A stretch of DNA of 34,078 bases from a virus. The notes under the pieces are model-generated. The model saw nothing but the letters and a program-made list of their open reading frames with translations. It was not told where the DNA came from and ran no database searches. Positions 3,094-31,455 of this stretch are shown here, in pieces; position 1 is the first letter of the stretch, and every line of letters starts with the position of its first letter. Position numbers and translations under genes: made by a program. The stretch lies in the IMG/VR virus record IMGVR_UViG_3300045107_000255, positions 1 to 34,078 of that record. One strand, given 5' to 3'.

Positions 3094-3693
3094 ATGATCG
3101 ATATGACGCGCGATTCGACCACGGCGACACCTCCACCGATCGGCGCCGTGATCCGGGACCGGATCCGCGACCTGCGCGACCAGGCGGGCCTCGGCCGCGA
3201 CGAACTGGCCGAACGGGCCCGGCAGCACGGGGCCGGCGAGTCCTTCACGGCCAACGTCGTCGGGTTCCTGGAGCGCGGCCGCCGCGGGTTGGCCGTCGAC
3301 GAGCTCCTGGCACTCGCCGGCGCATTGGAGATCTCCCCGCTGGAGCTGCTCGGCGACCAGGCGCACGTCTTCGTCGGCGCCACCGCCACCGCGGCGTCGT
3401 CGGTGTGCCCACGGTGCGACGGACTGTCCGGGGCGGTCGAGGACGCTACTCGGGCGGCCGTCGACGAACTGGGCGAGCTGCACGGCACCGAGCACGCCAC
3501 CGCCGCGGCCGCGTTCGCTCTGGCCCAGCTGATCGACTCCGGAGACCCGGACACCCTCGCCAAGACGCTGCCGTCGATGGTGCGGGAGCTGCGGGCGTCG
3601 CTGCGGGAGCTGACCGCCGCCCGGGCACCGAAGCTGACCCCGGCCGGCGGCGGGCCCGTCGACGAGATGGGAGGCCTCGGTGAGCCCGTCTGA
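3094..3693 (+). CDS. XRE-type HTH protein in small-terminase position
   Basis: 199 residues. ATG 3094 is followed by a second in-frame ATG at 3103; neither has a strong ribosome-binding site. Residues about 17-85 form a five-helix Cro/CI-type HTH (LRDQAGLGRDELAERA, then a recognition helix ending VVGFLERGRRGLAVDELLALAGALEISPLELL). A CPRC pair and a long helical C-terminus (ALAQLIDSGD...VRELRASLRELTA) follow. Its 3' end overlaps the large terminase gene by 14 bases. Small terminases bind DNA through HTH domains and oligomerise through helices, so that role is likely. A transcription factor is the alternative. Confidence 0.6.
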   Translation: MIDMTRDSTTATPPPIGAVIRDRIRDLRDQAGLGRDELAERARQHGAGESFTANVVGFLERGRRGLAVDELLALAGALEISPLELLGDQAHVFVGATATAASSVCPRCDGLSGAVEDATRAAVDELGELHGTEHATAAAAFALAQLIDSGDPDTLAKTLPSMVRELRASLRELTAARAPKLTPAGGGPVDEMGGLGEPV

Positions 3694-5248
3694 CACCGCC
3701 CGGCATGAGGCGCTGCGTACCCAGCTGGCCGAGCTGTACGGGCTGACCTGCGTACCGCGCTGGGGCACCCCCCGGGACCTGTCCCGCAAGTCGTACGGGC
3801 CGCAGGTCGCCAAGGTGGCCGAGTGGTTGGGCACCCCGCTGATGCCGTGGCAACGCTACGTCCTGGACGTCGCCCTGGAGGTCGACCCCGTCACCGGCCG
3901 GCTCGCCTACCGGGACGTCGTCACCACCGTGCCCCGGCAGAGCGGGAAGACCACGCTGCTGCTGGCCAAGATGGTGTGGCGGGCCAACGCCTGGCCCCGC
4001 CAGAACATCATGTACGCCGCCCAGAACAGGCTCAGCGCGCGCCGCAAGTGGGAGCGGGAGCACGTCGCCACCCTGGACCAGGCGGAACGGTTCGCCGGCC
4101 GGTACACCGTCCGGCGGGCCAACGGCGATGAAGCCATCATGTGGCGCAACGGCTCCTGGCACGGCATCACCAGCACGACGGAGACCGCCGCGCACGGTGA
4201 GACCCTCGACCAGGCCACCATCGACGAGGCGTTCGCCCTGGAAGACGACCGGATGGAAGCGGCGTTCTCCCCGGCGATGATCACCCGGCCGCAGCCGCAG
4301 CAGGACATCGTGTCCACCGCCGGCACCCTGCGGTCCCGGTACCTGAACAGCAAGCGTGAGCTCGGCCGGGCGCTGGTGGAGTCCGGGACCCGGTCGACGA
4401 TGGCCTACTTCGACTGGACGGTGGAGTCGGAGATCGGCAAGGGCGACTACGACCGCACCGACCTGGCTACGTCCCTGTCGTGCATGCCGGCGCTGTGCCC
4501 GACCCCGGGCCCGTGCACCTGCTCACCGCTGTGGCGGCACACCGTCACCCACGACGCGATCGCCGCCGAGCGGACCAAGATGAAGCCGGCCGAATACGAC
4601 CGGGCGTACCTCAACGTCACCCGGCTGGAGGTCGTCGAGGACGACCCAAACGTGCCGACCGAGGTGTGGCCGGACCTGCTCGACGCCGACAGCGTCCTGC
4701 GCCCTCCGGACGTGGCGTTCGCGATCGACGTCACCCCGGACCGGGCCTACACCTCCATCGGCGCGGCCGGGATCAACCGGGACGGGCTGCTGCACGTGGA
4801 GCTGGTCGACCACCGGCCCGGCACCGACTGGGTCGTGGCCCGGCTGCGGCAGCTCGTCGACGACCACAAGCCAGTCGGTGTCGGCGTCGACGCCGGCGGC
4901 CCGGCCGGCAGCCTCGTCGACCCGCTCCGCAAGGCCGGCATCACCATGCCCGACGACCCGGCCGAGCCGAAACCCGGCCAGCTCGCGCTGCCGACGGTGC
5001 CGCAGATCGCCGCGATGTGCGGGGCGTTCGCCGACGACTGCCGGCAGGACAAGCTGCGCCACATCGGCCAACCCGAGCTCGCCGCGGCGATCGCCGGCGC
5101 CCGGACCAAGCCCTTGGCCGACTCGTGGAAGTGGACCCGGCGGGGCAGCTCAGCCGACATCAGCCCGTTGGTGGCGATCACCGTGGCCCGGTGGGTGTAC
5201 GACACCCGGGCGCACCTGGTGCGCCGCCGGGGCCCGAACATCTGGTGA
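3680..5248 (+). CDS. terL: Terminase large subunit
   Basis: 522 residues, GTG start with GGGAGG 6 bases upstream. It is the ATP-driven DNA packaging motor and nuclease that fills the procapsid. Walker A is PRQSGKT (about 85-91) and Walker B is TIDEA with D182/E183. The ATPase domain covers about residues 50-270. The RNase-H-like nuclease domain includes acidic D350 in FAIDVTPD and D404 in GVDAGGPAG. Length and motif order are those of HK97-type large terminases. A Cys-rich insert near residues 270-285 (CMPALCPTPGPCTC) is unusual and could bind a metal. Confidence 0.95.
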   Translation: MSPSDTARHEALRTQLAELYGLTCVPRWGTPRDLSRKSYGPQVAKVAEWLGTPLMPWQRYVLDVALEVDPVTGRLAYRDVVTTVPRQSGKTTLLLAKMVWRANAWPRQNIMYAAQNRLSARRKWEREHVATLDQAERFAGRYTVRRANGDEAIMWRNGSWHGITSTTETAAHGETLDQATIDEAFALEDDRMEAAFSPAMITRPQPQQDIVSTAGTLRSRYLNSKRELGRALVESGTRSTMAYFDWTVESEIGKGDYDRTDLATSLSCMPALCPTPGPCTCSPLWRHTVTHDAIAAERTKMKPAEYDRAYLNVTRLEVVEDDPNVPTEVWPDLLDADSVLRPPDVAFAIDVTPDRAYTSIGAAGINRDGLLHVELVDHRPGTDWVVARLRQLVDDHKPVGVGVDAGGPAGSLVDPLRKAGITMPDDPAEPKPGQLALPTVPQIAAMCGAFADDCRQDKLRHIGQPELAAAIAGARTKPLADSWKWTRRGSSADISPLVAITVARWVYDTRAHLVRRRGPNIW

Positions 5249-5258
5249 GGAGAGGCCC

Positions 5259-5504
5259 GTGGGTAACAACCTGGTCGAGGCGTGCGGGTACCTGCTGATG
5301 ATCGGGTTCCTGTGGTTCGTGTGGCCGCCGCTGGTGCTGCTCGGCGCCGGGGTGCTCCTGGTCGCCGTGGCCAACGCCCGGGCCCGCGCGCAGTCCGGCC
5401 GGCCGCGCCGGTCGGTGCTCACCGCCCTGGGCGCCGCGGCCGCCGCGTACCGGCAGGCCACCACCACCGGTGACGGGTCGCGGGACCTGCGGCGGGTGGT
5501 CTGA
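5259..5504 (+). CDS. Small membrane protein between terL and portal
   Basis: 81 residues, GTG start with GGAGAG 5 bases upstream. One long hydrophobic stretch (about residues 8-38, WFVWPPLVLLGAGVLLVAV) is followed by a basic, Ala-rich tail. The stop shares a base with the portal ATG (TGATG). A short hydrophobic protein at this spot occurs in other actinophage head modules, but its role is not known to me. Confidence 0.6.
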   Translation: MGNNLVEACGYLLMIGFLWFVWPPLVLLGAGVLLVAVANARARAQSGRPRRSVLTALGAAAAAYRQATTTGDGSRDLRRVV

Positions 5505-6763
5505 TGACGCTTCTGAACACCCTGCGGGGCGCCCGGGCGTCGGTGGAAGACCCCCGCTACCCGATGACGTCGAGCACCCTGATTGACCTGTTCGGCGGGC
5601 CGAAGGCGGCCTCCGGTGTGGGCGTGTCCGAGGGGTCCAGCCTGGGCATGCCGGCGGTGTGGCGAGCGGTGAACCTGATCGCCGGCACGTCGGCCAGCTT
5701 GCCGTTGCACCCGTACCGGCGGGCTGACGACGTGCGCCTACCGGTCACCGGAGGGAAGGCCGCCGAGCTGATCGACGACCCGCACCCGGACATGACGCCG
5801 ATGGAGTTGTGGGAGGGCATGTACTTCCACCTGCTGCTGTGGGGCAACGCGTACTTCCGGATCCTGTACAACCGGCTCGGCCAGGTCGTCGAGCTGTGGC
5901 TGCTGCACCCGTCCCGGGTGCGGGTCGGCCGGGAGTCCGAGGCCGGACGGAAGATCTACCAGATCGACGGCGACCCGGAGGTGGCCTGGTTCGACGACAA
6001 GATCTTGCACATCCCCGGCCCCGGGTACGACGGGATCTGCGGGGTGTCCCCGATCCGCCTGGCCCGCCAGGGCATCGGCCTAGCCCTGGCCGCCGAGGAG
6101 TACGGCGCCCGGCTGTTCGGCTCAGGATCGCTGATGGCCGGGATCCTGCAGACCGAGCAGCGCCTGGAGGGCGACCAGGCCGACACGCTCAAGGCCCGGT
6201 GGAAGGCCCGCGTCGGTGGCCTGGAGAAGGCCCACGAGGTGGCCGTGCTCGACAGCGGCGTGAAGTTCCAGCAGCTGAGCATCCCACCGCAGGACGCCCA
6301 GTTCGTGGAGAGCCGGAAGTTCCAGATCGAGGAAGTCGCCCGGATGTACGGCATCCCCCCGGTGCTGCTGGCGCAGACGGAGAAGTCCACCAGCTGGGGA
6401 TCCGGCATCGAGCAGCAGATGATCGCGTTCGTCCAGTTCACGTTGCGGCCGTGGCTGACCCGGGTCGAGCAGCGGCTGACCAAGCTGCTCAAGCCCTCCA
6501 CCGTGTACGCCAAGTACTCCGTGGAAGGCCTGCTACGCGGTGACTCCGCCGCCCGGTCGGCGTTCTACACCGCCATGTTCAACCTGGGCGCCCTGTCGAC
6601 CAACGACATCTTGCGCTTGGAGGACCGGCCCCCGATCGGCCCGGACGGTGACGTCCGGTACCGGCCGCTGAACATGGGTGTCCTCGGCCAGCCCGACCAG
6701 CCCGAGCCGGCGCCGGAGCCGGCACCGGTCACCGACTCGGCACAGGAGCCCGCCGATGCCTGA
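5504..6763 (+). CDS. Phage portal protein, HK97 family
   Basis: 419 residues starting at ATG 5504. The portal forms the dodecameric ring at one capsid vertex through which DNA enters and to which the tail attaches. Diagnostic stretches are GMPAVWRAVNLIAGTSASLPL (first helices), MELWEGMYFHLLLWGNAYF, LHPSRVRVG, the clip/stem region VARMYGIPPVLL with EKSTSWGSGIEQQM, and ALSTNDILRLEDRPPIGPDGD near the end. The length is typical for the family. The C-terminus is a Pro/Glu-rich linker. It overlaps the next gene by 8 bases. Confidence 0.93.
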   Translation: MTLLNTLRGARASVEDPRYPMTSSTLIDLFGGPKAASGVGVSEGSSLGMPAVWRAVNLIAGTSASLPLHPYRRADDVRLPVTGGKAAELIDDPHPDMTPMELWEGMYFHLLLWGNAYFRILYNRLGQVVELWLLHPSRVRVGRESEAGRKIYQIDGDPEVAWFDDKILHIPGPGYDGICGVSPIRLARQGIGLALAAEEYGARLFGSGSLMAGILQTEQRLEGDQADTLKARWKARVGGLEKAHEVAVLDSGVKFQQLSIPPQDAQFVESRKFQIEEVARMYGIPPVLLAQTEKSTSWGSGIEQQMIAFVQFTLRPWLTRVEQRLTKLLKPSTVYAKYSVEGLLRGDSAARSAFYTAMFNLGALSTNDILRLEDRPPIGPDGDVRYRPLNMGVLGQPDQPEPAPEPAPVTDSAQEPADA

Positions 6764-6965
6764 GCACCTCGCACCGATCACCGGCCTGGTCGTCCGGCCT
6801 GGTGACGTTCTGATCCTGACCACCGCCGCCCCGGTCACCACCGAGCAGTTCGAGTCCATCCGCCAGCAGGCTCTGCAGAGGCTGCCCGGCCTGGGTGACG
6901 TCGTCATCATCAGCAACGTCACGGCGGTGGCCGCGTTCCGGCCGGAGGAGGCCATCCATGCCTGA
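6756..6965 (+). CDS. Small hypothetical protein between portal and protease
   Basis: 69 residues, ATG 6756, with AGGAG upstream inside the portal gene. The sequence is a strand-rich start (GLVVRPGDVLILTT), a helix (EQFESIRQQALQRL) and a further strand (DVVIISNVTAVAAF). Short proteins of this pattern appear in actinophage genomes near the portal gene, but I know no function. It overlaps its neighbours by 8 bases on each side, so it is certainly co-translated with the head genes. Confidence 0.6.
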   Translation: MPEHLAPITGLVVRPGDVLILTTAAPVTTEQFESIRQQALQRLPGLGDVVIISNVTAVAAFRPEEAIHA

Positions 6966-7776
6966 GCAGCCTCGGTACCGGTTCCACGGCCGGACCGCCC
7001 CCACCGCCCGCACCCGGACCCCGATCCGCGCGGAGGTCGCGGCCGGGGCGGCCGCCGGTGGGATCGCTACCCTGCGCCTGTACGACCCGATCGACTCGTG
7101 GGGCGGGCCGTGGGGAGTCTCGGCGAAGGAGTTCACCGAGGCCCTCGACGGGCTGACCGGCGTCGACGAGATCCGCCTGCACATCAACAGCCCCGGGGGT
7201 GAGGTGTTCGAGGGCATCGCGATCCTCAACGCCCTGCGCGCTCACCCGGCCCGGGTCACCGCCGTCGTCGACGGCCTGGCCGCCTCCGCCGCCAGTTTCA
7301 TCGCCGCCGGCGCCGACGAGGTCGTCATGGGCCGAAACACCGAGCTGATGATCCACGACGCGTGGGGCATCGTGATCGGTCCGGCCGCCGACCTGCGCGA
7401 CGCGGCCGACCGGCTGGACCACCTGTCGGACAACATCGCCTCCATCTACCAGGCCCGTGCCGGCGGCACCGTACCCGGCTGGCGGGCCGCGATGCTGGCT
7501 GAGACCTGGTACTCCGCCGAGGAAGCCGTCACCGCCGGCCTCGCCGACCGGGTCGAACACCCGGCCTCCGCCGGCGACGACACCAGCGGCGACCAGCCGG
7601 CCAACGGGTTCGACCTGTCGATGTTCCGGCACCCCGGCCGGGCGTCCGCCCCGCAACCACCGTTGCCCGCCCCCGGGCACCCCGCCCCCGCGCCGGCCGC
7701 CGTCGCGGTGCTCGACCGGATCCCCCGCCCCGACGACCCGGCCGTCCGCTACCGGCAGCGGGCCGCCCGCCGGTAA
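6958..7776 (+). CDS. Prohead protease, ClpP-like (S14)
   Basis: 272 residues, ATG 6958 with GGAGGAG upstream. It is a serine protease that would cleave the capsid delta domain and other procapsid proteins during head maturation. It has the ClpP signature INSPGGEVFEGIAI, the nucleophile S110 in GLAASAAS and the catalytic H133 in MIHDAWG, followed by a helix and the ETWYSAEEAVTAGLADRV handle region. The last 70 residues are a Pro/Ala-rich tail with no conserved motif, possibly a remnant of a scaffold function. It lies directly between portal and capsid, as expected. Confidence 0.9.
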   Translation: MPEQPRYRFHGRTAPTARTRTPIRAEVAAGAAAGGIATLRLYDPIDSWGGPWGVSAKEFTEALDGLTGVDEIRLHINSPGGEVFEGIAILNALRAHPARVTAVVDGLAASAASFIAAGADEVVMGRNTELMIHDAWGIVIGPAADLRDAADRLDHLSDNIASIYQARAGGTVPGWRAAMLAETWYSAEEAVTAGLADRVEHPASAGDDTSGDQPANGFDLSMFRHPGRASAPQPPLPAPGHPAPAPAAVAVLDRIPRPDDPAVRYRQRAARR

Positions 7777-7851
7777 CACCACCACCTACTACGTACCCGC
7801 CGGCGTGCCGCCGGGCGGGCCGTCCGCATGCTCACGGAAGGGACCACGCGC

Positions 7852-9096
7852 ATGTCGAACACCCAGCAGCTCCGCGAGCAGCGGGCCAGCACCTGGGACA
7901 AGATGAAGGCGCTGATCGAGAAGACCGAGCGCACCGCTGAGGACAACCAGACGTACGACCGCCTGGAGGCGGAGTACGACCGGCTCGACGGGGAGATCGA
8001 GCGCCTGGAACGGTTCGCCAACCGGGCGGCCGACAACGACCGGGTCGACCGGACCGGTGTCGTACCGGCCACCGGTGCCGGCACCGCCGCCGGCCGGGAC
8101 GGAGACAAGGCGGCGTACGCCGCGGCGTTCCGGAACTTCCTGCGCCTGGGCGTCAACGAACTCGACGCCGACGAGCGGGCCCTGATGCGTGACCAGTTCC
8201 AGCAGTTCCAGAACGCCGCCGGGGTCGGCACCGGCGCCGCCGGCGGGTACCTGGTCCCGCCCGAGTTCCGCGACCGGGTCGTGGAGGCCATGAAGTGGTA
8301 CGGGCCGATGCTGCAGGTCGCCGAGACCATCACCACCGACAGCGGGGCGAACCTCCCCTGGCCCACCGCCGACGACACGGCCAACGTCGGTGCGATCCTG
8401 GCGGAGAACACGCAGGTCAGCGAGCAGGACGTCACCCTCGGCACCGCGTCGATCGACGCCTACATGTACACCAGCAAGCTGGTCAGGGTCAGCTACCAGT
8501 TGCTGCAGGACCGGCCCGACTTCGACACCTGGCTGGCCCGCAAGCTCGGTGAGCGCATCGGCCGGATCTGGAACGCCCACTTCACCAGCGGCACCGGCAG
8601 CAGCCAGCCCGACGGCATCGTCACCTCCGCCACCGTCGGCGTCACCGGCACCGGGTCCTTCGCCAGCACCGGCGGCGTCGCCTACAAGGACCTGATCAAC
8701 CTGATGGAGTCCCTGGACCCGGCCTACGGCGGCGGCCAGGGCCTGCGGTGGATGATGCACCAGAGCGTCCGCAAGGCCATCCGCCTGCTCACCGACACCC
8801 AGAACCGGCCGCTGTGGGAGCCGTCGCTGCAGACCGGTCAGCCGGACAACCTGCTCGGCTACCCGGTCAGCCTCAACAACGACATGGCCACCTTCGCCGC
8901 CTCCAGCAAGTCGCTGCTGTTCGGCAACATCGCCGAGGCCTACGTCATCCGCCGGGTCCGGGACATCAACACCCTGCGCCTGACCGAGCGGTACGCCGAC
9001 TACCTCCAGGTCGGCTTCCTCGGCTTCGCCCGCGCCGACGGCACCATGCAGAACGCCAACGCGGTCAGGGTCTTCCAGGCCACCGCCACCGCCTGA
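7852..9096 (+). CDS. Major capsid protein, HK97 fold
   Basis: 414 residues from ATG 7852, which has GGAAGGG 9 bases upstream; an in-frame ATG at 7828 would add eight residues but lacks a site. Residues 1-60 form a charged coiled coil (delta domain) that acts as internal scaffold and is normally removed by the prohead protease. The mature shell domain begins around residue 125 with GAAGGYLVPPEFRDRVVEAM. It includes LPWPTADDTANVGAILAEN, a long P-domain helix, and GFARADGTMQNANAVRVFQ at the end. This is the standard phage capsid family layout. Confidence 0.95.
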   Translation: MSNTQQLREQRASTWDKMKALIEKTERTAEDNQTYDRLEAEYDRLDGEIERLERFANRAADNDRVDRTGVVPATGAGTAAGRDGDKAAYAAAFRNFLRLGVNELDADERALMRDQFQQFQNAAGVGTGAAGGYLVPPEFRDRVVEAMKWYGPMLQVAETITTDSGANLPWPTADDTANVGAILAENTQVSEQDVTLGTASIDAYMYTSKLVRVSYQLLQDRPDFDTWLARKLGERIGRIWNAHFTSGTGSSQPDGIVTSATVGVTGTGSFASTGGVAYKDLINLMESLDPAYGGGQGLRWMMHQSVRKAIRLLTDTQNRPLWEPSLQTGQPDNLLGYPVSLNNDMATFAASSKSLLFGNIAEAYVIRRVRDINTLRLTERYADYLQVGFLGFARADGTMQNANAVRVFQATATA

Positions 9097-9985: not shown

Positions 9986-10294
9986 ATGCGCACGTTCTGG
10001 TACGCCGCCCTCGGCTACACCACCGCCGAGATCCGCGACCAGGTCCTGGCCGACTTCACCACCGCGGCCCAGCCGTACGTAGACGCCGGAACACTCGCCC
10101 CGGCCACCTGGGACGAAGCCCCGAACTTCCCCGCCGGCGTGCAGACGGTCGAGGCCGTCGACGGGCTGCCCGGGGTGGCCGGCGGGTACAACGTCCCCCA
10201 CGGGTGGGACTCCACCGAGGACTGGGCGATGCTGGCCTCGATCCTGCAGGACCCGGCCGAGTCCGGATCACAGGGCCTGGCCACGATCCTGTGA
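9986..10294 (+). CDS. Hypothetical protein in head region
   Basis: 102 residues, ATG 9986 preceded by TAGGAGG, a strong ribosome-binding site. The sequence is aromatic-rich (TFWYAALGYTTAEIR, GYNVPHGWDSTEDWAML) with no transmembrane or HTH signal. The stop overlaps the GTG of the next gene (GTGA). It is transcribed with the structural genes and is probably a minor virion or assembly protein. The family is not recognised. Confidence 0.55.
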   Translation: MRTFWYAALGYTTAEIRDQVLADFTTAAQPYVDAGTLAPATWDEAPNFPAGVQTVEAVDGLPGVAGGYNVPHGWDSTEDWAMLASILQDPAESGSQGLATIL

Positions 10295-23358: not shown

Positions 23359-23577
23359 CTACAGAGCGACCCAGATGACCGCCCCGGCCGCGGCAACGAG
23401 CAGGGTGACGCCGATGATCCAGCCGGCGGCCTGCCCGGCGTAGTACCCGGCGGCCTGCAGCCAGTCGAGGGCGTAGGACCAGGCGTAGGCCCATCGTTCC
23501 CAGCGGCGGCCGGCCTCGAAGGCGCCGAGGACGCCGACGACGACCCCGGCCGCGAACCACAGGGCACGGTCTCGCAT
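23359..23577 (-). CDS. Small two-helix membrane protein, end of transfer operon
   Basis: 72 residues on the minus strand. ATG 23577 is chosen because GGAGAG lies 8 bases upstream; a GTG at 23586 would sit on top of that site. Two hydrophobic segments (RALWFAAGVVVGVLGAFEAG and AAGWIIGVTLLVAAAGAVIWVAL) flank an aromatic amphipathic segment (WERWAYAWSYALDWLQAAGYYAG). It could be a spread (Spd)-type protein of the transfer module or another small phage membrane protein. It is separated from the translocase gene by a repeat cluster. Confidence 0.6.
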   Translation of the reverse strand: MRDRALWFAAGVVVGVLGAFEAGRRWERWAYAWSYALDWLQAAGYYAGQAAGWIIGVTLLVAAAGAVIWVAL

Positions 23578-23606
23578 ATCTGTCACTCTCCGTTGATCGG
23601 GGTGGC

Positions 23607-23685
23607 GTCCGGACGGTCCGGACGAATCTGTCCGGATGGCCGTCCGGATGGTGGTCTACATGGACTGGGCCCCGCCCGTCCGGAC
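23607..23685. repeat. Cluster of 8-bp GTCCGGA(C/T) repeats, clt-like
   Basis: Copies start at 23607, 23616, 23630, 23642 and 23678 (GTCCGGAC, GTCCGGAC, GTCCGGAT, GTCCGGAT, GTCCGGAC); a sixth near-copy begins at 23687. They lie in the 140-base gap directly 3' of the TraB-like gene. In Streptomyces conjugative plasmids, TraB binds short repeated 8-bp sites in the clt transfer locus, which is often found at this position. Binding here is inferred. Confidence 0.6.
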
Positions 23686-23704
23686 GCTCCGGACGGGCGG
23701 GGCC
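23668..23704. terminator. 16-bp perfect hairpin 3' of translocase gene
   Basis: GGCCCCGCCCGTCCGG (23668-23683) pairs perfectly with 23689-23704 over an ACGCT loop. It lies 21 bases past the stop of the minus-strand translocase gene and contains one of the 8-bp repeats. It can act as a terminator of that gene or as part of a transfer locus. No T tract follows. Confidence 0.6.
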
Positions 23705-23725: not shown

Positions 23726-25645
23726 TCAGACGGGTTCGGGGATGCGGATGCGGTACACGCCGCGGCTGGTGTGCCGCAGGATCGCGTCGTCGCCGGTGCA
23801 CAGGCGGCCCATCTCTTTGCGGACCCAGTCGGCGCCCTTGCCGGTGGCTTCCATGACGTCGCTCAGCTCGCTGGGCTTGATCGCCTCGGCCCCGGCGTCG
23901 TGCAGGTCGTGGACGTACTGCCGCAGCCACTCCCGGGCCTCCTCCGCGCCCATCGGCGGCTTGCGCAGCTCACCGAAGGCGATGCGGCGGATGCCGGGCG
24001 GCACGGCGATGGGCTGCGCCGGGTCAACGTCGTCCGGCGGCTCGTCCGGGTTGACCCCGGGCCTCGGCGCGGTGGTGGTCGTGGTGTCCTCCTCGGTGTC
24101 GCCGTCCGGCGCCGGGCCGGCCGGGGCGGTGGGCTGCTGGGTAGTGGGCTGCTGGCCGGTGAACGGTGCGACGGCGGCGGCGCGGTCCTTCTCGTCGGCG
24201 ACGAAGGACCGGCACGGCATGATCCACCGCTCCGGGTCGGTGCCGGGCACCTCGGCGTACAGGTAGCCGGGCTTGGTGTTCTTCCACTCCCACGGCGCGG
24301 CCCCAGCGTCGAGGGTGGCGTCGGTCAGGGCCATCTCCGCGTCGGTGGCGCTGTCCACCCCGAGGCAGATCGACCCACTGATGTTGGACCGGGCACTGGT
24401 GGGGAACCGGTCGTGCGAGGCGCGCTGCAGGCCGAAGACCAGGCTGATGCCGGCGGACCGGGCCGCCTCGGTCAGCTCGGTGACGAGCGGGTTCCCGGCG
24501 GCCACCTGGGCGGCCTCGTCGATGATGGCGACCCGGTACGTGGGGCACCGGTCGCACCCGGCGGTCCACTGCTTGTGCTGGTGAGCGCCGATCTGCCGGG
24601 CCCGGGTAGCGATGTCGGCGTACAGGTCTTCCAGCAGCGCGTTGGTGGCCTCTTCGGTGCTGGCGGTGCGGGCGGCACCGTCGACAGCCCACCGGGGCAA
24701 CTGGTCGAACTTGCGGGGGTCGGCCAGCCACAGCTCCGCGTCGGGCCGGGACAGAACCTCGGCACAGATGTTGAGGATGACCTCGGTCTTCCCCGCTCCG
24801 GACATCCCGACGACCAGGTAGTGGTTGGCGTTGCGGCCGGCGGAGTGGTCGCCGGGGAACCAGATCAGCAGCGGCTCCCCGTCCTCCATGATCCCGAGGG
24901 CGATGGCTTCGGCGATGGACCGGCCCGGAGCGGACAGGCCCGGCCAGGGGATCATCTGGCGGAGCTGGTCGACGGGGACGACGTCGATGCGGCCCCGTCG
25001 TGCCGAGTCGGGGTTGGGGACGACCCGCACGGCCGTGGTGGGCACGTCCAGGGCGGAGGCCAGGGCCGCCCGGTCCCCGGCGAGTTCCGACACGGCGGTG
25101 CCGGGTTCGAGGCTGACCTGGGCGACCGCCCGGGCCCCGTCGATGGTGGCCCGGCCGATCCGGGCGCCCTTGAGGGACTTGACCGCCTCGCCCAGGCCGC
25201 CGTCCGCCGTACCGTCGTGCTCGCCGGTGGGCCGGCCGTCGCGGAGGACCCGGATCGTGGACATGGCCACCGACGCGGTGACCGTGCCGAGCACCCAGGC
25301 GTCCAGCCACGGCCGGGACCACGGGGCGGCCAGCGTGGCACCGATGGTCCAGACCGACCCGGCGCCGGTGGCGAGGGTGGCGACGTACCGGCGCACGACG
25401 CCGCGGGCGGCGGCGGCCCGCCAGGTCAGCCCGGTCAGCGCCCCACCGGCGAGGGTGAGCCCGGCGGCGGCGAATCCGGCTGTGACCGGGGTGTCCCACC
25501 ACAGGTGCCCGCCGGCGGTGGCGACCCACAGGCCGGCTCCGGCGGTGGGGGTGATCAGATGCGGCCACAGCGGCACCTTGACCTGCCACGACGACGGTTC
25601 GCTGTGGTCGATGTTCTTCGGCATCCTCGTCTTCACGCTGCTCAC
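23726..25645 (-). CDS. TraB/FtsK-like DNA translocase (conjugal transfer)
   Basis: 639 residues on the minus strand, GTG start overlapping the previous stop (GTGA). About four hydrophobic segments lie in residues 25-135. A FtsK/SpoIIIE motor follows, with Walker A GMSGAGKT (280-287, K286) and Walker B VAIIDEA (D376/E377), and sensor-like LVFGLQRAS. An acidic Thr/Pro linker (about 500-560) leads to a C-terminal winged-helix-like domain (IKPSELSDVMEATGKGADWVRKEMGRL...SRGVYRI). This is the architecture of Streptomyces TraB proteins, which move double-stranded DNA between mycelial cells. A phage-specific FtsK-like translocase is the alternative. Confidence 0.85.
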   Translation of the reverse strand: MSSVKTRMPKNIDHSEPSSWQVKVPLWPHLITPTAGAGLWVATAGGHLWWDTPVTAGFAAAGLTLAGGALTGLTWRAAAARGVVRRYVATLATGAGSVWTIGATLAAPWSRPWLDAWVLGTVTASVAMSTIRVLRDGRPTGEHDGTADGGLGEAVKSLKGARIGRATIDGARAVAQVSLEPGTAVSELAGDRAALASALDVPTTAVRVVPNPDSARRGRIDVVPVDQLRQMIPWPGLSAPGRSIAEAIALGIMEDGEPLLIWFPGDHSAGRNANHYLVVGMSGAGKTEVILNICAEVLSRPDAELWLADPRKFDQLPRWAVDGAARTASTEEATNALLEDLYADIATRARQIGAHQHKQWTAGCDRCPTYRVAIIDEAAQVAAGNPLVTELTEAARSAGISLVFGLQRASHDRFPTSARSNISGSICLGVDSATDAEMALTDATLDAGAAPWEWKNTKPGYLYAEVPGTDPERWIMPCRSFVADEKDRAAAVAPFTGQQPTTQQPTAPAGPAPDGDTEEDTTTTTAPRPGVNPDEPPDDVDPAQPIAVPPGIRRIAFGELRKPPMGAEEAREWLRQYVHDLHDAGAEAIKPSELSDVMEATGKGADWVRKEMGRLCTGDDAILRHTSRGVYRIRIPEPV

Positions 25646-26010
25646 CTGGCCCGGAACTTGAAGTCGGGCTTGCGTGCCTGGAAACCGGCCTGCTCCAGCT
25701 CAGGCATGAATGCCGCCTGGAACCGGTTGTTGGCCGTGATCACGTACTGAGAGGCGACGACCAGCGCCTCCGAGGCCTGCTGGATGGGCCGGGCGACCTG
25801 CCGGGCACGAGCGCGGGACGTCAGGCCGCCGACGGCAAGACCGCCGCCGACCCGCCGCAGCCGGGCTTCCAGCTCGCTGGCGGTGATGCCGAGCTCCAGG
25901 GCGGCGGCGTGAAGGATCCGCCGGGTGGACTCGGTCCACTCGATCAGGGCGACGTTGTCGGTGAGCGAGTCGGCGCCGGTGAAGATGGACCGCTGATGTG
26001 GCTGTGACAT
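25642..26010 (-). CDS. Hypothetical protein coupled to translocase gene
   Basis: 122 residues on the minus strand, ATG 26010 with GAGGAGG about 11 bases upstream. It is largely helical (EWTESTRRILHAAALELGITASELEARLRRVGGGL, then AIQQASEALVVASQYVITANNRFQAAFMPELEQAG) and ends in basic residues. The stop overlaps the translocase GTG, so both are translated together. A small gene directly upstream of traB is common on actinomycete conjugative elements. I do not recognise a named family. Confidence 0.7.
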   Translation of the reverse strand: MSQPHQRSIFTGADSLTDNVALIEWTESTRRILHAAALELGITASELEARLRRVGGGLAVGGLTSRARARQVARPIQQASEALVVASQYVITANNRFQAAFMPELEQAGFQARKPDFKFRAR

Positions 26011-26270: not shown

Positions 26271-27686
26271 TCAGACCGCGTCGCGGTCGGTGGTCTGGTC
26301 GGTAGTGGTGGTCTTCGTGGCCCGCTTGGCGCGCTCGGTGCGGACCAGGTTGATGGCGGCGCTGGTGTCCCCGGCGCTGGTCCAACCGAGGTCTTCCATC
26401 ACGGTCTTGCGCGCCGGGATCTCACCCCGGTAGCGGCGCCGGAGCACCTTGGCCATCTCCACTACGCGGGGCGGAACCTGGTCCGCGTCCTGGTCCACCC
26501 GGACGGTCGTCCGGGGCGCACTGGCGGTCCGGGTGGCCGGGATGGACCGGCTGGTCAGCGGCTGGACCACCGCCGCCGGGTTGGACCGGGCCTGGTCCAC
26601 CGGCTGGTCCAGGATCTGGTCCAACCACGACGTGTCGGCCTGGACCGAGGTGCGGACCGCCGGACGGGCCTGGACCGGTCCGACCGGCGCCGGCGGCGTG
26701 GTCTGGATCCGGGCCGCGATCCGGGCCGGCATCCGGACCAACTCGTTGGCCCACATCTGGTCTGCCGTGGCCCGCCGGGGCTGGTCCGGGCGGAACGCGT
26801 GGACGTGCTCGGCGCGCACCCGGTCGGCGGCCTGCCGGGTGATGAGCCGGACGCCGTCGAGCACGTCCCGGGTCGCGTCGTCGACCGGCTGCGCCTGCGG
26901 TGCGGTCGGATCGGTCAGCCGCTCGATCTGGTGCACCCGGGCCACCTGCCGCTGCGCCGTGGCGATCATGTCCGGGTCGGCAGCCAGGGCAAGGCGGCGC
27001 AGCTTCGCCGCGCGCAATGGCCGCAGCCGGCGGGATCCGTGGTGCAACCGGTGCGCGGTCACGGTGAGCTGGGTGATCCGCCGCTCCCGGTCGACCGTCT
27101 TCAGGTCCTTCTTCCCCGGCCGGATCAGGCCGAAGTGGATGCCGATGTGCCGGGGCGTCCAGATCCAGGACGACTGCTCCTGGACGTCTCCGCGCTTCTC
27201 CCGGAGTACCTCGACGAGGTCTGCCCACCACTGGGCGGCGACCAGGGCCGGGGCCATGAAGCGGACGAGCAGCTCGGCGACGTTCGGTGCGTTGGTGGCG
27301 GCGGTGAGGCCGGCGCCGAGGGCGATGGTCCACACCATCACCCCGTAGATGCCGGGCGTCTTGCCCTTCTCGACCTTGGCCCGGGCCCGGCGTGCGCTGC
27401 GGGCCATGGCCAGCTCGGCGAACGCAAACAGCAGGATCGCCTTGGCCGGGTCGAAGCCCATCTTCTCGGTGGCGACTTCCCACATGCCCTCGGCGGACAG
27501 CGCGACCGCGATCAGGACGGCGGCGCCGTCGCAGATCCGACCGAACAGGTCCACCCGGCCGCGTAGCTGCCGGCGCACCCAGTACCCGGCACCGGACAGG
27601 CCGACCATGAGGACACCGGCGGTGACGAGGACGGCTGTGTGGTGCTCGTCGACGACCGCCAGGGCCCGCTCGAACTCAGGAGGCAT
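26271..27686 (-). CDS. Multi-pass membrane protein, spread (Spd)-like
   Basis: 471 residues on the minus strand, ATG 27686, first gene of the transfer operon. About five hydrophobic segments lie within residues 15-155 (HTAVLVTAGVLMVGLSGAGYWV, GAAVLIAVALSAEGMWEVA, AILLFAFAELAMARS, GVMVWTIALGAGLTAATNA, FMAPALVAAQWWADLVEVL). A long basic, then Pro/Gln-rich cytoplasmic part follows, ending in a helical module (VVEMAKVLRRRYRGEIPARKTVMEDLGW). Membrane proteins with this plan accompany TraB in plasmid spreading. Family membership is uncertain. Its transcript is probably leaderless, since the predicted start lies at the ATG. Confidence 0.65.
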   Translation of the reverse strand: MPPEFERALAVVDEHHTAVLVTAGVLMVGLSGAGYWVRRQLRGRVDLFGRICDGAAVLIAVALSAEGMWEVATEKMGFDPAKAILLFAFAELAMARSARRARAKVEKGKTPGIYGVMVWTIALGAGLTAATNAPNVAELLVRFMAPALVAAQWWADLVEVLREKRGDVQEQSSWIWTPRHIGIHFGLIRPGKKDLKTVDRERRITQLTVTAHRLHHGSRRLRPLRAAKLRRLALAADPDMIATAQRQVARVHQIERLTDPTAPQAQPVDDATRDVLDGVRLITRQAADRVRAEHVHAFRPDQPRRATADQMWANELVRMPARIAARIQTTPPAPVGPVQARPAVRTSVQADTSWLDQILDQPVDQARSNPAAVVQPLTSRSIPATRTASAPRTTVRVDQDADQVPPRVVEMAKVLRRRYRGEIPARKTVMEDLGWTSAGDTSAAINLVRTERAKRATKTTTTDQTTDRDAV

Positions 27687-27690
27687 GACA

Positions 27691-27712
27691 ACAAGTTACC
27701 ACAGTAACTTGT
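27691..27712. promoter_or_regulatory. Operator O1, palindrome over the tra promoter
   Basis: ACAAGTTAC (27691-27699) and GTAACTTGT (27704-27712) form a perfect 9-bp inverted repeat with a CACA spacer. It overlaps the -10 box of the transfer operon promoter. This is where KorSA/KorA-type GntR regulators repress tra genes in actinomycete elements. The adjacent GntR gene is the likely source of the binding protein. Confidence 0.7.
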
Positions 27713-27721
27713 AGAGTCCAA
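27693..27721 (-). promoter_or_regulatory. Promoter of the transfer operon (leaderless)
   Basis: On the minus strand, TTGGAC (27721-27716), a 17-base spacer and TAACTT (27698-27693) form a good sigma-70-type promoter. The expected start point, about 7 bases past the -10, falls on the A of the ATG at 27686, and no ribosome-binding site precedes that ATG. The operator at 27691-27712 covers the -10 and most of the spacer. Confidence 0.6.
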
Positions 27722-27722
27722 G

Positions 27723-27742
27723 CAGGTTCCTGCGGTAACTTG
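27723..27742. promoter_or_regulatory. Operator O2, imperfect second copy
   Basis: This 20-bp site matches O1 at 17 of 20 positions when one is inverted relative to the other, with the half-site CAAGTTACC kept. Its centre is 31 bp from the centre of O1, about three helical turns, so two dimers would sit on the same face of the DNA. It lies upstream of the GntR gene and could serve autoregulation. Confidence 0.55.
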
Positions 27743-27821
27743 CCCTCACCGTCGCAACCAGGCCCGCCGACCTCGACGGGCTACCCTGATTCGACTTACT
27801 GCACCAACCGAGAGGATCACC

Positions 27822-28586
27822 GTGAGCGAGCACGTTCCGGCGTACCTGCGCATCGTCGCGGAGCTGCGCGCGCGCATCATCTCCGGCGACCTCCAAGCGG
27901 GCGACCGGGTGCCGAGCGAGAACGACATCCGCCAGGCCTACGGCGTGTCCAACACCGTGTCCCGCGCCGCGTTGGCGATGCTCCGCGCCGAAGGGCTCGT
28001 CGAGCAGCGCCGCGGCTCCGGCACGTACGTACGCGACGCGGCCCGGCTGGTGCGCCGCGCCCACGCCCGGAACATGCGGCAACAGACCGGCAGCACGTCG
28101 CCGTTCGCCCGAGACGCGACGGCGGCCGGCCGGGCCAGCACCTGGGACCACCGCAGCGAGCACGCCACCGCCGACGCCCGGATCGCCGGCCGCCTCGGTA
28201 TCGCCGTCGGCGACCCGGTCATGGTCACCCGGTATAAGTTCCTCGCCGACGGTGACCCGATCCAGCTGTCGGAGTCCCACGAGCCCCTGGCGGTCACCGG
28301 CGGCACCCAGGTGGAGTGGCCGGAGGACGGGCCGACGGTCGGCGTGGTGGCCCGGATGGACTTGATCGGGGTGCACGTCGACCGGTGCCGTGAGGAGATC
28401 TACGACCGGTCCGCGACACCGGACGAGGTCGAGGCGCTGCGCTTGGATCCGCGTGGACCGTTGCGGGTGCTCGCGGTGGAGCGCACCTACTACGCCGGTA
28501 ACACCGCCGTGGAGACGGCGGACATCGCGTTCCCGGCGGATCGGTACCGGTTGGTGTACGACATGCCGATCGATCTGCCGACATGA
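27822..28586 (+). CDS. GntR-family regulator (HutC/UTRA), KorSA-like
   Basis: 254 residues, GTG 27822 with GAGAGGA about 6 bases upstream. The N-terminal winged HTH (AYLRIVAELRARIISGDLQAGDRVPSENDIRQAYGVSNTVSRAALAMLRAEGLVEQRRGSGTYV, residues 6-70) is followed by a UTRA effector-binding domain (about 95-250: PVMVTRYKFLADGDPIQLSESHEP, CREEIYDRSATPDEVEALRL, LAVERTYYAGNTAVETADIAFPADRYRLVYDMPI). It is divergent from the transfer operon, with two palindromic operators between. In pSAM2-like elements such regulators keep tra genes silent. The effector is unknown. Confidence 0.88.
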   Translation: MSEHVPAYLRIVAELRARIISGDLQAGDRVPSENDIRQAYGVSNTVSRAALAMLRAEGLVEQRRGSGTYVRDAARLVRRAHARNMRQQTGSTSPFARDATAAGRASTWDHRSEHATADARIAGRLGIAVGDPVMVTRYKFLADGDPIQLSESHEPLAVTGGTQVEWPEDGPTVGVVARMDLIGVHVDRCREEIYDRSATPDEVEALRLDPRGPLRVLAVERTYYAGNTAVETADIAFPADRYRLVYDMPIDLPT

Positions 28587-28692: not shown

Positions 28693-29058
28693 ATGCCTGA
28701 AACACCCACGACCGCCACACGCCACGCGCCGGGCCGCGTGCACACCGGCCTCCTCGCCGCCGCCGTCATCGCCGCACCGACCATCTGGATGGCCCTCGGA
28801 TGGGCCAGCTTCATGCTCGTCGGCCCCGTCACGTTTGGCCAGGCCAGCGTAATCGCCCTCGCCGCCGTCCTGGCCCCGGTCTGCGTACTCCTGGCCATGT
28901 CATACGTCGAGCGGCGCGACGACGCACGCCGCCACGAAGAGCTGCTCGCCGCCCTGGCCCTCATCGCCGACCGGATCGGCCAGCAGCCGATCGACGCGGA
29001 AGCAGTAGAGGCGATGCGCCGGATCAACATGCGACTCGTCGGCAAGGACCATTCGTGA
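28693..29058 (+). CDS. Membrane protein, possible lysogenic gene
   Basis: 121 residues. ATG 28693 is preferred over 28678 because GAGAGG lies 7-8 bases upstream. Two transmembrane segments (TGLLAAAVIAAPTIWMALGWASFMLV and ASVIALAAVLAPVCVLLAMSYV) are followed by a charged helical tail (ERRDDARRHEELLAALALIADRIGQQ...AVEAMRRINMRLV). It stands alone with its own promoter, between the GntR and recombinase genes. Single membrane genes in such positions sometimes act in superinfection exclusion. That is only a suggestion. Confidence 0.6.
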   Translation: MPETPTTATRHAPGRVHTGLLAAAVIAAPTIWMALGWASFMLVGPVTFGQASVIALAAVLAPVCVLLAMSYVERRDDARRHEELLAALALIADRIGQQPIDAEAVEAMRRINMRLVGKDHS

Positions 29059-29115
29059 TAGCAGTTTCTAATCTTTCACGATCGTGAAAGATCACAAAGA
29101 TAGAAAACTGCTACC
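29057..29115. other. AT-rich compound palindrome (terminator or attP candidate)
   Basis: TAGCAGTTT (29059-29067) is mirrored by AAACTGCTA (29105-29113). Inside lies a perfect palindrome with 11-bp arms ATCTTTCACGA (29071-29092), centred at 29081.5, while the outer arms centre at 29086. It fills the gap between two convergent genes and overlaps the recombinase stop codon. It is strikingly AT-rich for this element. It may be a bidirectional terminator or the recombinase attachment site. Confidence 0.6.
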
Positions 29116-30532
29116 AGCGGAAATGCACGGTAACCCGCGCTGATTCGGGCTCCCGCCAGTGCTCAGCCCGGCGCACGACGACTCGGTCCACGACCGCACG
29201 TAGCGCCCGGTTTCGCTCCTGGTTGGTCATCTCCGGCCACAGACGCAGCAGGGTATCCACCGCCGCCGCCTCGGCCTCCGGCGGCGGTGCCGACTCCACC
29301 GGGCCGAGGCGCGCCAGCTCGGCCACCGCCGCCTGCTCCCTGCGGCGCAGCTCGGCCATCGACTCCTGGTACACCTCGTCGGGCAGCTCGCCGAGGGCGT
29401 CGCGGGTCGCCAGCTTCGTCATGCCGGCCCGCACGACCCGCAGCTGCTGCTCCATCCGGTCCCGGTCGGCGCGGGCGTCGGCGATGCGAGCCAGCCGGGC
29501 GGCGCGAGCCCCGGCGTCGGTACGCAGCCGGGCCGCGTACACCCGCACCTGGGCAAGCACCTCCTCCTCCACCCGGTCGACGAGAGGCCGGCCCACACCG
29601 GGGCAGTCGCCTCCCTTGGTGTCGGTGCGGGTCTGGCCGCACACAAGCCGGCCAGCCTGCCGCTGGAGCTTGTGGCCCTGCGGGCACTCCACCAAGCCCA
29701 CGAGCGGCCACCCGTAGGCCAGCGCCCGCGGCGGGGTGCCGGCTTCGACCGCCAGGCGCTCCTGGACGCGCTTCCACGTATCGGCGTCGGTCAGGGCTTC
29801 ATGCTGGCCGGGCAGGATCTCGCCGCCGGCCACCACCTGGCCGAGGTACACCGGGTTCCGGAGCAACTTCTTGACGTTCGCCGTGGTCATCGGCACGCCA
29901 CGCACCCCGGCCAGGTAGGCGGTCACCTCGCCGATCGGCTCACCGGCCGCGTACCGGCGGAAGGTCTCGGTGATCGCCGGACCGATCCGGCCCGGTGTGA
30001 GCCCCTTGTCGGCTCTGGCGTAGCCGAGAGGCCGGCCGTGGTGCTGCCCACGTTCGGCGCGGCGGCGGATCGTCCCGGCCCAGCCTGCTCCGATCTCGTC
30101 GGACCGGTACTCGGCGATCGCGAGCATGTTGGTGAGCATCAGCCGGCCGGCCGGGGTGGACGTGTCGACCTGCTCGGAGGCGGACAGGATCGTGACGCCC
30201 TGGTCGGCCAGCTCGGCGAGGAACGTCAGGGACTCCTTGACGTTGCGGCCGAGCCGGGACACGTCGTAGACGGCCAGGGCGTCGATCTCCCGGGCCTCGG
30301 CCATGCGGCGGATCCGGTCGATGCCCTCGCGGGAGAAGTGACGGCCGGTGCGGTCGATGTCCTCGACGACCGCCACCTCCCGCAGGCCGGCGAGGGTGCG
30401 GCGGATCGCGCCGAGCTGCACGTCCGGGCTGTGGAAATCATCGCCGCCCCGGCCGGCAAGGGCCGATACCCTGACGTAGGCCACAACCCGCTGAGGACGA
30501 CGGTCAGGGGCGGCCTTGAGGCGGCGCGGCAT
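29111..30532 (-). CDS. Large serine recombinase (integrase)
   Basis: 473 residues on the minus strand, ATG 30532 overlapping the previous stop (ATGA). It would catalyse attP x attB integration through a Ser-DNA link. The catalytic domain has YVRVS (S23), the VYDVSRLGRN segment near 90-98, and RLMLTNMLAIAEYRSDEIG. A recombinase domain follows (HGRPLGYARADKG...TAYLAGVRGVPMTTANVKKLLRNPVYLG), then a zinc ribbon with CPQGHKLQ, LVCGQ and CPGVG cysteines and a coiled-coil (ARADRDRMEQQLRVVRAGM). The length is normal for the family. No partner directionality factor is certain. Confidence 0.93.
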   Translation of the reverse strand: MPRRLKAAPDRRPQRVVAYVRVSALAGRGGDDFHSPDVQLGAIRRTLAGLREVAVVEDIDRTGRHFSREGIDRIRRMAEAREIDALAVYDVSRLGRNVKESLTFLAELADQGVTILSASEQVDTSTPAGRLMLTNMLAIAEYRSDEIGAGWAGTIRRRAERGQHHGRPLGYARADKGLTPGRIGPAITETFRRYAAGEPIGEVTAYLAGVRGVPMTTANVKKLLRNPVYLGQVVAGGEILPGQHEALTDADTWKRVQERLAVEAGTPPRALAYGWPLVGLVECPQGHKLQRQAGRLVCGQTRTDTKGGDCPGVGRPLVDRVEEEVLAQVRVYAARLRTDAGARAARLARIADARADRDRMEQQLRVVRAGMTKLATRDALGELPDEVYQESMAELRRREQAAVAELARLGPVESAPPPEAEAAAVDTLLRLWPEMTNQERNRALRAVVDRVVVRRAEHWREPESARVTVHFRW

Positions 30533-30924
30533 CAGCTCGCGCGGTTGTCGTTCTGAGCGCCACGTTCGGCACGATCCGCCATGTCGGCCAAGTATCGGAG
30601 GGCCCCGCGGATCGTCGCCCGCTCTCCTTCGCTGGCGTCGGGAGAGCGCAGTCGGCGGAGGATGATCCTCAGGTCAGCGTCCAGGGCGTCTGCCCGCTCG
30701 GCTCCGCCGGCTGCCGCGAGAGCGTGTGCTTCGTCATCTCCGAGCGCCTTGGCGATGGCCTTGACGCTAGCCACGGTCACCCCGTCGCCCTTGATCCAGC
30801 CGAAGATCGTCGACTTGTTGACGCCGGCCTCCCTGGCGAGCCTGGCAACGCTCCAGCCGGGTCGACGAGTCATCCGCCGGAGGTACCCCGCCCAGTCCTC
30901 GGGCGGTGGAGGGGCGTCGTCCAT
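30532..30924 (-). CDS. XRE-family HTH regulator, likely immunity repressor
   Basis: 130 residues on the minus strand from ATG 30924; an in-frame ATG at 31071 would give 179 residues but reads through an operator palindrome with poor coding bias. The HTH is WSVARLAREAGVNKSTIFGWIKGDGVTVASVKAIAKALG (about 25-65). A helical C-terminus (RADALDADLRIILRRL..ERATIRGALRYLADMAD) may dimerise. TACGGT lies 6 bases before the ATG, as in the divergent HTH gene, so it may be leaderless. Co-transcription with the integrase suggests it maintains lysogeny. Confidence 0.7.
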   Translation of the reverse strand: MDDAPPPPEDWAGYLRRMTRRPGWSVARLAREAGVNKSTIFGWIKGDGVTVASVKAIAKALGDDEAHALAAAGGAERADALDADLRIILRRLRSPDASEGERATIRGALRYLADMADRAERGAQNDNRAS

Positions 30925-30968
30925 GCGGGCACCGTATGCGGTTGACCAGGGAGGGCGATACTTCATTG

Positions 30969-30990
30969 GCCGTTGCCCTTTGGCAACGGC
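30969..30990. promoter_or_regulatory. Switch operator 1
   Basis: GCCGTTGCC and GGCAACGGC, 9-bp arms with spacer CTTT. It lies 45 bp upstream of the leftward HTH gene start and is the longest of four related palindromes. Confidence 0.75.
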
Positions 30991-31073
30991 TACCGCCGCC
31001 GCGTCCCGCTGTTTCAGCCAATCAACGCCCTGCTCGATGGTGCACGCCAACATGATCAACGCTTCCTCCATGT

Positions 31074-31089
31074 GTTGCCTGCGGGCAAC
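31074..31089. promoter_or_regulatory. Switch operator 2
   Basis: GTTGCC and GGCAAC with spacer TGCG. The same core and spacer length (4) as the other three sites. It lies in the middle of the divergent region. Confidence 0.7.
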
Positions 31090-31157
31090 GATAGGGCATG
31101 GACGGCTGAGGCCTACCTACCGGTTCGGCTGATTTCGCGGCGCCTCGGCCCCAGCGC

Positions 31158-31187
31158 TTGCGTTGCCTAAAGGCAACGGTCTACGGT
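31158..31187 (+). promoter_or_regulatory. Rightward early promoter, leaderless
   Basis: TTGCGT (31158-31163), 18-base spacer, TACGGT (31182-31187). The expected start point falls at or next to the ATG at 31195, and no clear ribosome-binding site precedes it. It would drive the rightward early operon. Confidence 0.55.
31161..31178. promoter_or_regulatory. Switch operator 3, inside the rightward promoter
   Basis: CGTTGCC and GGCAACG with spacer TAAA. It overlaps the end of the -35 box TTGCGT and fills the spacer up to the -10 box TACGGT, so binding would block RNA polymerase. Confidence 0.75.
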
Positions 31188-31194
31188 CTGAGAC

Positions 31195-31455
31195 ATGGAA
31201 GCGACGGAAAAGATGGACGGTCCGTTGCCTAAGGGCAACGGCGTGCGGCTCCGGATCGAGGTGTACGACGCCCTCGCCGGAGAGAAGGGGCTGACCTCGG
31301 TCGCCGGGCAGGCTCGACGACACGGCATCGGCCGAACCCACATGTCCCTGATCCGAGCCGGCCGCAAGGGAGTCGGCCTGTCGCTGGCCATGCGGATGGC
31401 CAGCGACCTGGAGACGACGGTTGAGGCCCTTTTCGGGCGAGTGCCCCGGCGATGA
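31195..31455 (+). CDS. Cro-like small HTH protein
   Basis: 86 residues, ATG 31195 directly after a promoter (leaderless); ATG 31213 is an alternative. SVAGQARRHGIGRTHMSLIRAGRKGVGLSLAMRMASDLETTVEALFG is a compact XRE-type HTH with the recognition helix in GRTHMSLIRAG. It starts the rightward early operon and faces the other HTH gene, the layout of a cro/cI-type switch. Operator 4 lies within its first codons, which would allow feedback on its own transcription. Confidence 0.7.
   Translation: MEATEKMDGPLPKGNGVRLRIEVYDALAGEKGLTSVAGQARRHGIGRTHMSLIRAGRKGVGLSLAMRMASDLETTVEALFGRVPRR
31222..31241. promoter_or_regulatory. Switch operator 4, inside the Cro-like gene
   Basis: CCGTTGCC and GGCAACGG with spacer TAAG. 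It lies about 30 bp into the coding region, encoding PLPKGN. Its core is identical to the three intergenic sites, although it is under coding constraint. Confidence 0.75.

Follow-up and report, generated by a model that had tools for sequence, protein, structure and literature searches.

The element analysed here is a virus contig of 34,078 bp, and the whole of this stretch is referred to as the window. Phage head genes lie between positions 3680 and 9096 on the plus strand, where a terminase large subunit (3680-5248), a portal protein (5504-6763), a ClpP-type protease (6895-7776) and an HK97-type capsid protein (7828-9096) are encoded. A traB gene (23726-25645, minus strand) specifies an FtsK/SpoIIIE-type DNA translocase of 639 residues with an N-terminal hydrophobic region and a predicted C-terminal winged helix. 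On the same strand there is a traA-like gene at 25642-26010 (NF041213, 34.6 bits, below the cut-off of 80) and a gene at 26271-27686 for a 471-residue protein that has hydrophobic stretches in its N-terminal part and lacks a family assignment; its position resembles that of the DUF2637/Spd genes of plasmids. A GntR/UTRA regulator is encoded at 27822-28586 (plus strand); GntR regulators likewise flank traA and traB in Streptomyces plasmids. A large serine recombinase with Resolvase and Recombinase domains is encoded at 29111-30532 (minus strand).

The gap between the traB stop codon and the next start codon is about 148 bp and contains an array of TCCGGAC iterons, designated here a candidate clt (23605-23704, minus strand). 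The first gene past the array (23359-23577, minus strand) encodes a 72-residue protein that is hydrophobic at both ends. No family was found for this protein, homologues of it occur at the equivalent place in five relatives, and by position it may be Spd-like. Small proteins of 70-76 residues, hydrophobic at both ends and with a conserved G-R-R/K-x-E stretch, are encoded directly behind the array in the window and at loci L070, L072, L115, L116 and L117.

TraB and the octamer array

The TraB protein matches the NCBIfam model NF041214 (plasmid_TraB) with 457 bits over residues 28-637, which is nearly the whole model. Since the equivalog cut-off of this model is 800 bits, the protein is classed by its sequence as homologous and TraB-like, and not as an equivalog by that threshold. 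Searches with the single protein found no relatives, and an alignment-based search recovered them. In the alignment, identity to the relatives is 32-46%, and the Walker A motif GMSGAGKT and the Q-R-A/P motor motif (LQRAS) are conserved with plasmid TraB. The nearest TraB proteins are those of Micromonospora, Catellatospora and Winogradskya, and the host may be a related bacterium.

The last 93 residues of TraB are predicted to form three helices followed by a two-strand hairpin (H-H-H-E-E), with a core pLDDT of about 90. The third helix of this model is GADWVRKEMGRL, within which lies DWVRKEMGRL. A Foldseek search of the C-terminal model against the PDB gave no significant match (best E 0.12), the matches including winged-helix regulators, and no FtsK-gamma Pfam match was found for this region; the assignment as a winged helix therefore rests on topology and not on a confident match. 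At that level, the topology of the model bears out the proposal that TraB ends in a winged-helix-like domain. Calmodulin matches obtained with the C-terminal profile were rejected as spurious, as they span profile positions 18-56 and end before helix 3.

The original prediction, that five GTCCGGA(C/T) octamers lie within 79 bp (23607-23685) directly 3' of the TraB-like gene, was confirmed, and the array is situated between traB and the gene for the 72-residue protein. It had also described the copies as palindromic. This is true of copies 1 (23607-23614), 2 (23616-23623) and 5 (23678-23685), all of which read GTCCGGAC and are perfect palindromes, but in copies 3 (23630-23637, plus strand) and 4 (23642-23649, plus strand), which read GTCCGGAT, the palindrome is confined to the inner 6 bp. 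Three of the spacings between octamer starts (9, 14 and 12 bp) are within the 9-14 bp that had been given for some of the copies, the remaining spacing being 36 bp. Copy 5 is part of a hairpin, the second arm of which carries a sixth core, TCCGGAC (23688-23694, plus strand). The hairpin is 17 bp long and perfect, rather than 16 bp as first reported, with arms at 23668-23684 and 23688-23704 and a loop of 3 nt. Its predicted RNA fold has an energy of -42.5 kcal/mol (z -8.4), and no T-run is present. The hairpin may have a second role as a terminator of traB. Rfam searches of the gap returned only sub-threshold microRNA models, which were taken as chance matches.

When GTCCGGAY was counted over the whole 34,078-bp record, 10 strand-matches were found against 7.4 expected, so that there is no global excess. 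Clustering of the octamer is nevertheless extreme: only two copies, at 10261 and 26731, lie outside the array, and none of 1,000 dinucleotide shuffles placed more than two octamers in any 79 bp, compared with the five observed. In a scan of all 8-mers, with none preselected, the traB gap, with 5 copies in 140 bp against a best of 3 elsewhere, came first in the 34-kb record. With 7-mers the gap was level with one coding repeat, and with 6-mers in 180 bp an equal count was reached in 1.8% of windows. As the 6-mer statistic alone is only moderately striking, the 8-mers and shuffles were used in its place. The signal of the array is thus one of clustering and not of global count.

Repeat arrays and recognition helices in related elements

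The 3' gaps of about 56 traB relatives were extracted and compared with the same gap in the window. Short-repeat arrays were present in nearly all of the gaps examined, and in most of these loci the best 6-mer reached P=0.005 in shuffles, which is the floor of the test. Among the arrays recovered are the repeats published for the clt of pWTY27 (TGACACC) and of pJV1 (CCGCACA), both of which have mapped clt loci. Eight gaps that resemble the one in the window have their repeats at positions that align, but the repeated bases differ. Arrays are weak at L072, L075 and L076, and a TraB-like gene of Streptomyces globisporus pTFSG2 (L180) has no adjacent array, so that its clt, if any, lies elsewhere.

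The closest relative is in Micromonospora ATCC 39149 (L116), where the TraB protein is 66-69% identical to that of the window. Its third helix reads SGDWVRKAL, compared with GADWVRKEM in the window, and DWVRK is common to both. The L116 gap contains CCGTCCGGACGG arrays, including GTCCGGAC, at the same place as the array of the window, and is followed by the homologous small protein. In the 6.8-Mb Micromonospora genome, four of the five pairs of GTCCGGAC within 12 bp are in the traB gap. The lone pair outside it (G031:C4:5766634-5766650) could be a chromosomal clt-like site. This genome also has a second TraB-like locus (L165), which was set aside because its sequence is partly masked. The next relative of the window, L070 (55% TraB identity), has the helix TAAWVGKEL and the repeat CCGTACG (CGTACG) instead, and in G008 the helix SGSWLYKAL is found with the repeat GCACGG.

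Helix and repeat similarity were correlated across the relatives (Mantel r about 0.57), and a correlation was retained when motor similarity was held constant (partial Mantel r about 0.28, P=0.001). However, motor similarity keeps a correlation of its own and is as good a predictor of iteron similarity as the helix, which indicates that shared descent accounts for some of the signal; moreover, the P values are optimistic, as the compared pairs share ancestry and are not independent. Since the effects of helix and descent are not cleanly disentangled by the Mantel test, motor-matched pairs were used, together with a contrast between three Streptomyces loci. Among pairs with 78-97% motor identity, median iteron similarity was 0.72 for pairs with the same helix key and 0.25 for pairs with a different key. 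The three loci have TraB motors that are 94-95% identical and gaps that are otherwise alignable, but S. parvulus (L126) combines the helix PWVSA with a TGACAC array, S. sp. S.PB5 (L131) has SWVSL with TAACAC, and S. sp. TSRI0107 (L133) has SWVSK with TCACAC. These loci appear to be natural specificity switches, and as evidence such near-isogenic contrasts weigh more than the P values above. In the distant pJV1 group, SWVSK/R is again paired with C before ACA. Furthermore, CCGCACA was present in all four additional RDRSWVS/RERSWVS plasmids that were fetched after the pattern had been noticed, one of these arrays being displaced behind a small ORF. Taken together, the comparative evidence shows that the repeat changes together with the TraB recognition helix.

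A candidate clt and its rivals

Beside the TraB gene of the window, short motifs are repeated in non-coding DNA, an arrangement expected of a clt, which is a cis-acting locus. In pSVH1 of Streptomyces venezuelae, hexamers of an FtsK-type TraB bind repeated 8-bp clt motifs via helix α3 of a winged helix and move double-stranded DNA (PMC3583192; PMC5133688). The proposal that the array is a clt is supported by the adjoining TraB relative, by the clustering of the octamers, by the arrays in related elements, by the co-variation of helix and repeat and by the winged-helix model, and we consider it very probable, as judged from sequence comparison, that the array serves as clt for the TraB that the element itself encodes. 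We infer physical binding, loading and transfer, and also which of the six cores would be used. According to the mechanism proposed, TraB would be a membrane-anchored FtsK-type hexamer that reads the TCCGGAC iterons via helix α3 of its C-terminal winged helix, loads on the array side of its own gene and pumps the element as double-stranded DNA into an adjacent cell or hypha. Spread would be aided by the small hydrophobic protein whose gene follows the array.

The co-variation of the array with TraB is poorly accounted for if the array is an operator for a regulator, a set of replication iterons or simply a terminator. Palindromic octamers would suit a dimeric regulator, and the small gene at 23577-23359, immediately upstream of which the array is located, might be controlled by a regulator of the element (GntR at 27822, HTH at 3094 or 30532, or another). 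On the other hand, the octamer is not repeated at the other promoters of the element, a sigma-70-like promoter was looked for and none was found, and the DNA beside the GntR and HTH genes holds different palindromes (CAAGTTAC-GTAACTTG near 27692 and CGTTGCC-GGCAACG near 31161, respectively). As the array sequence, in addition, follows the TraB helix, a role as operators is considered improbable.

It is very improbable that the array serves in replication or partition and follows traB by chance. Such sites typically have short clustered iterons; however, no rep or par gene is next to the array, and arrays that co-vary with TraB follow traB in phages, in an AICE and in plasmids of several types whose replication modules differ. 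That the locus is only a transcription terminator, with GC-rich hairpin arms that resemble the nearby repeats by chance, is scarcely credible even with a perfect 17-bp hairpin soon after the traB stop codon, because four of the octamers, within 43 bp, are not part of the hairpin, a T-run is absent, and the Micromonospora relative has a run of three octamers at that position and not the same hairpin.

Known systems and the nature of the element

The array and TraB of the window are of the TraB-clt kind that is already known, and the octamer motif is new. The window resembles pSVH1 in having an FtsK-type TraB and 8-bp repeats, recognition being predicted in the window, but the pSVH1 motif is GACCCGGA rather than GTCCGGA(C/T), and pSVH1 is a small plasmid without phage genes. 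At traA/clt of pWTY27 the array starts at the end of the transfer gene, runs into the 3' gap and is footprinted by the transfer protein (PMC3583192); this theta plasmid differs in its repeats (TGACACC/CCCGCCC) and helix (SRPWVSARL). This conjugative plasmid also has a gene (L067, 6585-8045) whose annotation is phage major capsid protein. The clt regions of pJV1 and pSN22 likewise have a repeat array directly 3' of traB, with different repeats (CCGCACA, published for pJV1; PMC3583192) and a different helix (RDRSWVSK/R). The L116 locus is AICE-like, differing from the window in its DUF3631, DUF2637 and tyrosine-integrase-like genes, and no capsid or portal match was found in the Micromonospora ATCC 39149 genome.

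An AICE combines an integrase, a replication module (RepSA, DUF3631/RepAM or Prim-pol) and Tra functions. The window has a serine recombinase and Tra genes, together with phage head genes, and neither DUF3631 nor Prim-pol was found among the scanned proteins, a subset of its ORFs. Given its terminase, portal, capsid and serine recombinase genes, the element is best described as a phage with a traA-traB-clt module of the AICE/plasmid type. No DNA similarity to known phages was found, and phage protein matches were limited to weak FtsK-like ones in mycobacteriophages. An assembly chimera is unlikely, since traB is similarly placed relative to phage head genes in L013/G008 (which has the portal in common, with 69% identity), in L072 and in L070, where the terminase, portal, capsid and tape-measure genes are of other families.

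Phage and conjugation genes on one element have precedents in pZL12/PhiZL12, described as a plasmid-phage capable of conjugal transfer (PMC3583192; PMC5431353), and in pCQ4, which like the window carries traA, traB, terminase, portal and capsid genes and has CTGACA repeats after traB. Both are large extrachromosomal Streptomyces replicons, whereas the element of the window is compact and encodes a serine recombinase. What is new, besides the octamer, is the co-variation of helix and repeat across about 50 related elements. In an open-literature search no systematic helix-to-repeat correspondence was found described, nor was one cassette common to phages with different capsid modules and an AICE-like element.

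These data provide a concrete, testable candidate for the clt that a TraB system encoded by a tailed phage would use. Dozens of natural elements, some of them having near-isogenic motors whose specificity is switched, also supply TraB helices matched with their target DNA. The rule by which an entire family of conjugation systems recognises its DNA can thereby be tested directly, and clt sites and TraB-mobilised chromosomal sites would be predictable from protein sequence. The chances seem even that traB and clt form a swappable cassette common to actinobacterial phages and AICEs, with a specificity readable from helix α3, and that such phages spread both ways. The proposed specificity residues are located around the conserved Trp of helix α3 (W-1, W+2 and W+3). 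Within the swappable-cassette reading, D-W-V-R-K would specify GGAC, A-W-V-G-K GTAC, P-W-V-S TGACA, S-W-V-S-L TAACA and S-W-V-S-K (T/G)CACA. If the cassette reading is true, phages could spread as virions and by conjugative transfer of double-stranded DNA, and switched specificity would keep co-resident elements from cross-mobilisation.

Other repeats were observed in the window. Just upstream of the GntR gene, at about 27692-27745, there is a palindrome CAAGTTAC-CACA-GTAACTTG with a further GGTAACTTG half-site, which is unlike the clt octamer and is a candidate operator for a transfer regulator. Palindromes of 18 bp, CGTTGCC(N4)GGCAACG, at 30971-30988, 31161-31178 and 31223-31240, with a looser copy at 31074-31090, adjoin an HTH gene (30532-31071, minus strand) and are candidate repressor operators. 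Beside the serine recombinase gene, between two converging genes at about 29058-29113, lies a long A+T-rich inverted repeat with a CTTTCACGATCGTGAAAG core.
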